Shown here: positions 32,445 to 56,145 of the stretch, piece by piece | How the letters are laid out: the number at the start of each line of letters is the position of its first letter | Position numbering within the stretch: the first letter of the stretch is position 1 | Assembly (NCBI GenBank): GCA_025057575.1 | Contig: JANXBO010000011.1 | Location: 1-63,537 of the forward strand | Source: Candidatus Caldisaccharidevorator malaysiensis | GTDB lineage: Bacteria > Armatimonadota > Fervidibacteria > Fervidibacterales > Fervidibacteraceae | Direction: 5' to 3' | DNA length: 63,537 bases | The notes under the pieces: model-generated | Databases searched by the model: none | Told to the model about the DNA's origin: nothing | What the model saw: the letters and a program-made list of their open reading frames with translations, nothing else | Program-made: the position numbers and the translations under genes

Positions 32445-32981
32445 ATGGAAAAGGTCACCATCAGGTTTTTTCAGGCACGTTCATACTTGGAGTCGGTGAG
32501 AGCCGTGACAGACTGGTTCAAAGAACTGGAGGATCGTCTCCCGACGCTGGGTCATCGCAATTGGCTGGCGATCGTGGATATGGCTTTTCCTGACCTGGTC
32601 GCCCCTGGGATCGTCAAGATATGGACCAATGCCGACCTTTTGCGAGTCCTGAGCGACTGTCTGAGGCTGATTCAACGGTTCCCCCATATAAAGCCTATCT
32701 TGTGGCTGGATCGGGAGTTGGACTTTGTTCGGGAGGAAGAGGCTCCCGGCATTTCCCAATACCGAGAAAACCTTAAGGTGACCCTTGAAAAGCTCCCCGT
32801 GAAACAAGAAAATCACGAGGACATCATCAAGAGGTTAGATGAGGCGGGGCGGACCTTTACCGTTGTCCTTCTTAAAACGCGAACGTGCCTGCCCTACTCG
32901 TCTGTCTTTGTGGAATTAGAGTGCGGCTACTGGGACAAAACGAGAGAATCGCACCTAAGGGAAAGGCTGGTGTCACCGTAG
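32445..32981 (+). CDS. RbsD/FucU-like sugar mutarotase family protein (tentative)
   Basis: A 178-residue soluble protein. L-G-H-R-N-W-L-A-I-V-D-M-A-F-P (about 36-50) parallels the L-G-H-G-D-x-I-x-I-x-D-A-x-F-P region of RbsD/FucU pyranase/mutarotase proteins, and the end L-K-T-R-T-C-L-P-Y-S-S-V-F-V-E-L-E-C-G-Y-W resembles their C-terminal conserved strand. The assignment is from memory of the family and moderate. If right, it would interconvert anomeric or ring forms of a sugar, in line with the carbohydrate genes nearby. It starts at ATG 32445 and ends on a strong bidirectional hairpin. Confidence 0.55.
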   Translation: MEKVTIRFFQARSYLESVRAVTDWFKELEDRLPTLGHRNWLAIVDMAFPDLVAPGIVKIWTNADLLRVLSDCLRLIQRFPHIKPILWLDRELDFVREEEAPGISQYRENLKVTLEKLPVKQENHEDIIKRLDEAGRTFTVVLLKTRTCLPYSSVFVELECGYWDKTRESHLRERLVSP

Positions 32982-33024: not shown

Positions 33025-33591
33025 CTAACTTCCCTTAAACAAGTCCTTAATCGCCTGCTTAACCTTGTCAAAGTCCTTCTGGTCTACGTTGATCATTTTG
33101 GCAGAAAGGGTCTTGTTGCGGTAGACGAAGACGATGTTCTTCAGGTCGTCCGAAAGGGCGATCTTAAACAGTTGGAGGTAGGAGTCCCGTCGCTTCTCTG
33201 GAAGGTAGCAGAGAGCGATCGCCTCTATCTTCTTCTCCTGAGCCAGTTTGGCGATCCGGTCCTTGGCGGTCGGATCAACCCATATAACGAAGGCGTAAAT
33301 CTCCTTCTTCTCTTTACGAAGTTCCTTGATCAGTTCCTCTAACTTCGCAACCAGACCGGCTGCGTTCTCCCCAGAATCCTTGTGAATCCAGACCTGGACC
33401 TGGGGAGTCATCCCGTATTTTCACACGGGACAGGTATCGGTCCCCTTATCGGGACCAGCAACGTGAATGGGATTGTAGGCGGGAACAGCGTCCCCGACCT
33501 TCAACCCCGTATCGGGCACCTTCTTCTCCCCCTCCTGCGCCCACAGGAGGACGGCAACAATTGCCGTAATCGGCACGATCAGCCAACGCAT
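33025..33591 (-). CDS. Predicted secreted thioredoxin-like selenoprotein (CxxU), in-frame TGA at 33421-33423
   Basis: One frame of 188 codons plus stop, interrupted by TGA at 33421-33423 (codon 57). Start ATG 33591 follows AAGGAAGG and gives a signal peptide (R-W-L-I-V-P-I-T-A-I-V-A-V-L-L-W-A-Q). The mature N-terminus has G-D-A-V-P-A-Y-N-P, then V-A-G-P-D-K-G-T-D-T-C54-P-V-TGA57-K-Y-G, and continues in frame as P-Q-V-Q-V-W-I-H-K into a thioredoxin-like alpha/beta body ending near D-L-F-K-G-S. Related secreted proteins, from memory, have cysteine at the TGA position, so selenocysteine would give a C-x-x-U redox motif. A SECIS-like hairpin follows the TGA. Ordinary annotation would split it into two ORFs (33421-33669 and 33025-33411). 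Selenocysteine machinery is not in the window; a C-to-TGA mutation is the alternative. Confidence 0.75.
33367..33407 (-). promoter_or_regulatory. Putative bacterial SECIS element
   Basis: In the minus-strand mRNA, CUCCCCAG (33407-33400) pairs perfectly with CUGGGGAG (33374-33367). Inside, UCCA/UGGA form a short upper stem capped by GGUC (33394-33391). The loop begins 26 nt after the UGA, within the spacing typical of bacterial SECIS elements, and GGUC is the apical sequence I recall from the E. coli fdhF element bound by SelB. The lower stem starts 13 nt after the UGA. Confidence 0.65.
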
Positions 33592-33767
33592 CGGCGTCCA
33601 CCTTCCTTTCGGATTTTCGGTTTCGGTATAGTTTGACGCAAGAGTGTCGCTACGGTTATTTTTCTCCAACTCTTATGTTGATCCTGATCAGGCAGCACCC
33701 CTGTGATTTTTAATGTTACATCCCTTTTTGTTTTTTCCGAGCCGATGAGTGCCCGCGCTACAAGCCC

Positions 33768-34014: not shown

Positions 34015-34971
34015 ATGGACAACTTTTTTGCTCTCTGGACGCTGGGTTTTTTGGTGGGAGTTGTAGGGGGCTTTTTTGGGATCGGGGGCGCCTCCATTGT
34101 GACCCCTGCCCTTAACCTCTTGGGGTTCCGAATGCCGATCGCCATCGGCACGGACCTGGTCCATATTTTTGGGAAATCGGTTTCGGCGACCCTTAAGCAC
34201 GGTGAGTTAGGTCATCTGGACTGGAAAATCGCCGTCCTGCTGGCTTTGGGAACGATCCCCGGTGTAGAGATCGCCGCTCGACTGGTTTTTTTCTGGAACG
34301 AAAGGGGGATTGTGGATCAGTCTGTCCGCTGGATTCAAATGGTCGTCTTGGGTGCCCTCGCTTTAATGGTCTTGTCGGAGCAAGTTTTTAAACGACACGG
34401 CGGTTTCAGCAACTGGAGAGGATTTTTGGCACGGATTCCGATTCCGCCCTACTTTGACAGCCCAGTGTCCCACCTGTCCCGAGCCTCCGTTTGGGGTTTC
34501 ATCGGACTGGGTCTGTTTACGGGATTTATGGCGGGTATGCTGGGCGGTGGTGGGGGAACAGTCCGAGTCCCGGCGATGATCTACCTTTTGGGGATGCCTG
34601 CCAAAGTGGCAGTCGGCACTGACTTGATTGAACTCCTTTTGTCAGCGGGATATGGGTCCTTTGTCTACATCTCCCAAGGGCAGGTGGACCTGCTTTCGGC
34701 GTTAGTAATGCTGTTTGGCGGTGCCTTTGGCGCCCGACTGGGGGCGATGGCAACTTTCTATAGTCCCTCCCGTCAGTTAAGGGGGCTCTTGGGGATTCTC
34801 CTCGCTGCTTCCTTCTTAGCCGTCACGATGAAACAGTTTCGCTTCGGGGGGACCCTTTTGCCTCTGACGGTCTTAGGTTTGACGGCTTTTGGAATTGCCC
34901 TCTTTGTTCTTTGGATTTTAGTTACAAACCTATGGGTCCCCCGTCGCCTCTCGGTAGAGCAGAGACGATAG
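34015..34971 (+). CDS. TauE/SafE family sulfite/anion exporter-like permease
   Basis: A 318-residue polytopic membrane protein with about eight helices. The first half has G-F-F-G-I-G-G-A-S-I-V-T-P-A-L and T-D-L-V-H-I-F, and the second half repeats this as G-M-L-G-G-G-G-G-T-V-R-V-P-A and T-D-L-I-E-L-L. This internal duplication is the hallmark of the TauE/SafE (DUF81) family, whose members export sulfite, sulfoacetate or other organosulfur anions. ATG directly abuts the stop of the upstream small gene. Substrate is unknown. Its 3' end overlaps the convergent LuxE-like gene by 42 bases. Confidence 0.9.
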   Translation: MDNFFALWTLGFLVGVVGGFFGIGGASIVTPALNLLGFRMPIAIGTDLVHIFGKSVSATLKHGELGHLDWKIAVLLALGTIPGVEIAARLVFFWNERGIVDQSVRWIQMVVLGALALMVLSEQVFKRHGGFSNWRGFLARIPIPPYFDSPVSHLSRASVWGFIGLGLFTGFMAGMLGGGGGTVRVPAMIYLLGMPAKVAVGTDLIELLLSAGYGSFVYISQGQVDLLSALVMLFGGAFGARLGAMATFYSPSRQLRGLLGILLAASFLAVTMKQFRFGGTLLPLTVLGLTAFGIALFVLWILVTNLWVPRRLSVEQRR

Positions 34972-55807: not shown

Positions 55808-56145
55808 TGGTGGAGGCGGCGGGAATTGAACCCGCGTCCGGAAGGGCTCTGAAATCACGGACTACGAGCGTAGCCGCTATTTGGCTCTCGGCGAGGGGCG
55901 CCCAGCGGCAGGCTCCCTCTCGCCCAGCCCTCCCCAAACCTTACCTGCTGCTGGGAGGGCACCCGTCAGCAGGGCATCCGGCTCTGTGAACCTGGTCCCA
56001 GCGCCGCCGGACCGCGCCAGGCAGGCTGCTGCGTCCCTTACGCAGCCAAGGCGACTGGGTTCGCACTTCTTTTGTTCGGCTATTGCGGTCGCCACCCGGC
56101 TCGCCCGCAATTCCAACTTCCCTCCCGTCGAGACCCTTCGCCCCC
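55808..56145 (-). ncRNA. ssrA: Transfer-messenger RNA (tmRNA)
   Basis: A 338-nt RNA. The 5' end GGGGGCG (56145) pairs with 3' CGCCTCC of the CGCCTCC-A-CCA end at 55808, giving a 7-bp acceptor with the characteristic third G-U pair; CCA is encoded. The 5' region has the conserved T-C-G-A-C, and the T-arm is GCGGGTTCAATTCCCGC. The tag frame ends N-K-R-S-A-N-P-V-A-L-A-A then TAA (56040-56038). The preceding codon in that frame is CCG instead of the usual Ala/Gly resume codon. A T-rich stretch downstream of the 3' end may terminate transcription. Confidence 0.95.

Follow-up and report, generated by a model that had tools for sequence, protein, structure and literature searches.

The window, the whole stretch of 63,537 nucleotides that was analysed, carries a predicted selenoprotein gene on its minus strand, at positions 33025..33591. 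From an ATG at 33591-33589, the frame runs through a single in-frame TGA (33421..33423) to a TAG and yields 188 residues. With the TGA rendered as U, the protein reads MRWLIVPITAIVAVLLWAQ...GPDKGTDTCPVUKYG..., in which translation and the corresponding column in homologues place a putative selenocysteine (Sec) at residue 57, the last of a CPVU motif. Its partner, Cys54, is encoded at 33430..33432 (minus strand), as seen in the translation and the alignment. The motif lies downstream of a signal-like N-terminus and upstream of a conserved body. A putative signal peptide occupies residues 1 to ~18 (33538..33591, minus strand, with a guessed cleavage site), where hydropathy averages 2.84 over 11 residues and the structural model has low pLDDT in residues 1-20, and a ribosome-binding-site-like GGAAGG (33601..33606, minus strand) sits nine bases upstream of the ATG. 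An earlier reading of this DNA from its sequence only had described a frame open through TGA with protein on both sides, which is what the minus-strand translation gives. Its coordinates were correct, but it left the strand unstated, and the plus-strand frame does not give the protein that it described. Its remark that annotation would split the gene is borne out by a mechanical ORF list, in which the gene appears as 33421..33669 (82 aa) and 33025..33411 (128 aa), both on the minus strand. TGA is also, as had been claimed, an ordinary stop elsewhere in the window, where it terminates 17 of the 47 ORFs of at least 150 aa that were kept after removal of shadow ORFs.

The flanking long ORFs (32445-32981 and 34015-34971) are on the opposite strand, and the selenoprotein gene therefore looks monocistronic. 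When the ORFs of at least 150 aa in the 24-44 kb portion of the window were compared with 11.7 kb of G001 and 7.3 kb of G002, no gene neighbours common to the window and these relatives were found; consequently, genomic context points to no function. Elsewhere in the window, a tmRNA (55808-56145, minus strand) encodes the tag ANPVALAA.

All four Sec-decoding components that the sequence-only reading had named are present in the source assembly (2.78 Mb in 102 contigs, completeness 90.9%, contamination 2.3%). The selA, selB and selD genes score 560, 408.9 and 384.3 bits, each above its cut-off, and a tRNA-Sec with anticodon TCA (UCA in the RNA) scores 77.7 bits. The selD gene carries an in-frame TGA of its own (SPKGGUACKIG), at what we take to be the usual Sec site of SelD. 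These genes are all on contigs other than that of the window. It is unlikely that they come from a stray or contaminating contig, because GC content matches (0.54-0.56 in five stretches from the machinery contigs and 0.55 in the window) and because SelB, of the six sequences compared, is closest to those of its own family (56% and 54%, as opposed to 44% within the order and 35-41% for three others). Two AhpC/TSA redoxin genes of the same genome, L181 (G000:C14:102977-103345) and L182 (G000:C36:5990-6346), have a TGA at the classical catalytic place, in TSGU and UGPC, respectively. Five of the nine AhpC-TSA matches of the source genome were flagged with one TGA, and further flagged matches occur in G000, G001, and G002, so the bacterial family of the source genome may have a sizeable selenoproteome. 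Two tRNA-Sec matches per genome were seen in G001, G070, G195, G196, G251, G254, and G271, and the selB match G290:C31:2536-3663 is itself flagged with one in-frame TGA.

In homologues, the place of the TGA is typically taken by a cysteine codon. Across 132 checked loci, the Sec column holds TGC or TGT in 102, TGA in 29, and CGC in 1, which answers in the affirmative the earlier question of whether homologues have Cys at this position, and the TGA is located precisely in this column in 29 of 29 TGA genes. Close to the source, the gene is found in two of the three other genomes of its family, the third being 61% complete, and in three of the five genomes of its order, with one TGA in each at the same codon; the order genomes lacking it are G003 (61% complete) and G004 (96% complete). 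In Armatimonadota, 101 of 291 genomes match, in a total of 125 rows, of which 12 contain one TGA, 1 a TAA, 2 a TAG (both stop-free within the aligned range), and 110 no stop. We retrieved and aligned 90 of these rows, including all 12 with TGA, and found TGA (12, the gene in the window included), TGC/TGT (77), or CGC (1) in the Sec column. C54 and P63 are each conserved in 90/90 of these members, and C/U57 in 89/90. Among Planctomycetota, 52 of 392 sampled genomes match (66 rows), with one TGA in 17 rows from 16 genomes. The 42 loci aligned from outside Armatimonadota, namely 35 from Planctomycetota (all 17 TGA rows included) and 7 named ones, divide into 17 TGA and 25 TGC/TGT. Among the named relatives (21 loci), TGA occurs in Armatimonadetes bacterium SKYB58, 0707_bin6, and FIMBRI1, while the other 18, from Armatimonadota, the planctomycete Aeoliella, and Bacteroidota, are Cys forms. 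The sequence on both sides of the TGA varies mainly at third codon positions: L014 and L015 differ at codon positions 1/2/3 by 15/7/32 over the 56 codons before it and by 44/25/73 over the 130 codons after it.

Several individual loci depart from the common pattern. In L092 (G212:C632), CGC (Arg) occupies the Sec/Cys column and CYTR replaces CxxC. In L034 / L115 (Chthonomonadales bacterium MAG_18), a Cys form has an in-frame TAA 76 codons past the motif, which is either gene decay or an error. Some genomes hold more than one copy: G155 has a Cys copy (L020) and a TGA copy (L044), G210 has a TGA copy (L082) and two Cys copies (L086 and L087), and G437 has two TGA copies (L164 and L170).

A tree of 90 Armatimonadota proteins, computed with the Sec column masked, requires seven Sec/Cys changes, at least four of which are forced by well-supported branches. 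A larger, quickly built tree that includes outside sequences (131 rows, L177 omitted) gives ten changes, at least five of them forced, and rejects a single Sec clade. The trees do not distinguish gains from losses; we infer that lineages have repeatedly switched between Sec and Cys. The TGA form is also tied to the decoding machinery. In Armatimonadota, selB is above cut-off in 12/12 TGA genomes vs 49/89 other gene-bearing genomes (Fisher p 0.0015), and tRNA-Sec is present in 11/12 vs 49/89 (p 0.013), the single miss being G062, which is 85% complete. In Planctomycetota, the corresponding selB counts are 13/16 and 5/36 (p 5e-6), although these Fisher values, like the rank p values for mRNA structure below, are optimistic (too small) since related genomes are non-independent. 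The Planctomycetota TGA genomes without selB above cut-off are G606, G573, and G641, where our guess is that it is missing because the assemblies are incomplete. Since about half of the Cys-only Armatimonadota genomes have selB as well, the TGA form requires the Sec machinery, but the machinery can be present without the TGA form.

The mRNA downstream of the TGA differs between the two forms. Scoring fold stability as a z value against synonymous recodings made from each gene's own codons, we obtained, for the stretch 12-54 nt downstream in Armatimonadota, a mean of -2.19 for the 12 TGA genes vs -0.11 for the 78 others (p 1e-4), with p 6e-4 and 3e-5 for the other stretches tried (0-60 and 9-45). 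Outside Armatimonadota, the 12-54 stretch gives -2.03 (16 of the 17 TGA genes) vs -0.56 (25 Cys genes; p 5e-4). As a group, then, TGA genes are more strongly structured than Cys genes in the mRNA that follows the codon, both inside and outside Armatimonadota. The value for the gene in the window is -1.98; 4 of the 12 TGA members (L079, L080, L082, and L084) show at most a slight excess of structure in the 12-54 stretch (z above -0.9), and raw energy in the 9-45 stretch separates TGA from other genes with a p of only 0.06. A candidate bacterial SECIS element (bSECIS) in the mRNA is a stem-loop at 33368..33406 (minus strand), with arms at 33406-33392 and 33383-33368 and an 8-nt loop at 33391-33384. 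This stem, which two family members share, has 15 pairs and an 8-nt loop 29 nt after the UGA, with 93.3% of cells paired in the three sequences and three pairs altered on both sides; its covariation is matched by 28/500 shuffles, for a stem drawn from the folds of these same three sequences. The published bSECIS rules, as coded from section 5 of PMC13188914, fit 6 of the 12 TGA members, the other 6 having no qualifying hairpin. The shared stem has no G at the first two loop positions, and a smaller alternative hairpin in the window gene (GGUC loop, -9.6 kcal/mol) agrees with the rules. Codon shuffles of the window gene contain a qualifying hairpin in 38/60 cases, 34 of them as stable as the gene's own. 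We therefore rejected the published rule as proof of Sec, shuffles satisfying it about equally often.

Together, the Sec machinery, the Sec/Cys exchange at one codon, the co-occurrence with selB, and the group-level mRNA structure support the selenoprotein first proposed from the sequence, and the gene almost certainly encodes one. The same observations bear on other explanations of the TGA. Since one substitution separates TGC/TGT from TGA, a Cys codon might have mutated in a pseudogene or been misread in sequencing, and L034, a Cys homologue, does have a real-looking nonsense codon in its TAA. However, of the four family genomes examined, the three that have the gene share this TGA, 29 genes of two phyla have it invariably at this codon, the reading frame is conserved downstream, and the TGA form is tied to selB; we give decay or error a very small chance.

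Tracking of selB by TGA members argues in like manner against decoding of the UGA by a different suppressor tRNA that inserts Cys or Trp. While the Cys found there in homologues would suit such a tRNA, the genome has tRNA-Sec, selA, selB, and selD, and TGA serves it as a normal stop, which makes this reading improbable, if slightly less so than a pseudogene or error. A reading as two genes, in which a 56-residue exported peptide is followed by an ORF that begins at ATG 33411, has in its favour that both ORFs figure in the mechanical list. The Cys homologues are nevertheless one continuous protein, and the ATG is absent in L015 (KYGT), L024 (KYGK), and L144 (KYGP), all of which retain K-Y-G. 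Because this ATG is not conserved, we discarded the two-gene reading, the least probable of all. A single selenoprotein gene remains the preferred explanation.

The selenoprotein is very probably exported, judging from its N-terminus. A crude hydropathy measure finds a hydrophobic N-terminus in 27 of 29 TGA members and 93 of 103 others, in line with the extracytoplasmic location first suggested. As for the fold, an AlphaFold2 model built from a 22-row alignment has a pLDDT of 91.6 and a pTM of 0.84, and is poor only in the ~20 N-terminal residues. Its best PDB match by Foldseek is the Bcp1 peroxiredoxin (E 4.5e-8, TM 0.65/0.79), and the matches listed are mostly BCP/PrxQ, Prx5, Prx6, Tpx, and other redoxins. 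What had been described as a thioredoxin-like body is hence supported as a redoxin/peroxiredoxin-type fold, and the protein is probably a redoxin-type oxidoreductase. Between a peroxidase and a disulfide oxidoreductase, we put the odds at about even.

Redoxins have their catalytic cysteine after the first core strand and before the long helix, and the Sec positions of L181 and L182 agree with this classical site. In the model, the order of elements is a strand (42-45), a short helix (55-59), a strand (64-69), a helix (74-93), and the remaining redoxin fold; C54/U57 precede strand 64-69, and helix 74-93 comes after it. The weak Pfam AhpC-TSA match of L167 (E 0.043) agrees with a placement before the strand, since by linear count it puts U near profile position 21/124. 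Alignment by hhalign to eight redoxins from three genomes of the family has a probability of 82-83% and, in contrast, pairs CPVU with TPGC, using long gaps. The earlier claim that the TGA sits at the expected second cysteine of a C-x-x-C holds for the CxxC of this family itself; that it is the classical thioredoxin position is doubtful, because CxxU in the model precedes the strand leading to the usual catalytic cysteine. It may be, at somewhat less than even odds in our estimate, that this redoxin fold lost the classical catalytic cysteine and that Cys-x-x-Sec before the first core strand is a relocated active site.

Pfam, NCBIfam, and PDB sequence searches of the scanned members assigned no family. 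Weak matches of single members include ResA (NF002854, 0.004), AhpC-TSA (0.01) and Sep15_SelM (0.09); within Pfam, AhpC-TSA (E 0.01) and Redoxin (E 0.075) each appear below threshold in 1 of 22 members, and no AhpC/TSA-Redoxin profile match exceeds its curated cut-off, AhpC-TSA at E 0.01 being the best. None of the members scanned matches a selenoprotein family in the NCBIfam release of June 2026, and none of 32 pattern hits places a relative on a viral contig. Among known groups, the AhpC/TSA and Redoxin families (PF00578 and PF08534, including Prx TxxU and Prx-like UxxC) have a fold like that predicted here; however, the Sec redoxins L181 and L182 have U at the classical site, whereas CxxU in the new protein stands before strand 64-69. 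Table 1 of PMC13188914, a 2026 review, catalogues Prx-SUH (NF045827), Trx7/PDZ (NF041199), SelW-like (PF10262), and AhpD types (NF041238 and NF041047), which are CxxU and redox-type like the new protein; the NCBIfam/Pfam scans gave no match to these models, not all of which the library may hold. The same table has Redoxin UxxC (PF08534) and the VPGUxxT thioredoxin-like NF041383, which belong to the thioredoxin superfamily and contain Sec as here, but with Sec first in the motif or in another motif, in contrast to CxxU. In the scans, NF041383 is absent from the NCBIfam results for the members. By the review's count, that table, of May 2026, holds 119 prokaryotic selenoprotein families or subfamilies, and comparison by motif and domain description reveals no evident equivalent in it; the 2022 list in PMC9312934 likewise has no family matching by motif and domain. 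Among the open-access papers listed in our literature searches, we found none on selenoproteins of Armatimonadota, or related to the motifs CPVU/CYVU/CYRU/CYIU. Since it has no evident counterpart in the 2026 table, the 2022 list, or the June 2026 NCBIfam, we call this a new, apparently uncatalogued selenoprotein family, a planctomycete member of which might be in table S9 of PMC4807772.

Our explanation, to which as a whole we attach a high probability, is that a single gene encodes an exported 188-residue selenoprotein with Cys54/Sec57 chemistry on a redoxin fold. SelB and the Sec-tRNA(UCA) would decode the UGA, a strongly supported step, with the candidate hairpin shortly after the codon assisting. 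The signal peptide would direct secretion, which is fairly well supported. Cys54 and Sec57 could then cycle between the selenol/thiol and a reversible selenenylsulfide, and the AhpC/TSA-like fold predicted by the model suggests that the pair acts on thiols/disulfides or peroxides in the periplasm or envelope. Cys versions would perform the same job in relatives.

An important implication is that an apparently new family of exported proteins occurs in Armatimonadota and Planctomycetota, two little-studied environmental groups, in which ordinary ORF calling splits the TGA members into two. If the active site has indeed been relocated, this would be a new family of secreted selenoenzymes, spanning two phyla, whose site moved on a common fold. 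The exchange of Sec and Cys, together with the genomes that have both forms (G155 and G210), would offer a natural test of the benefit of selenium outside the cytoplasm.
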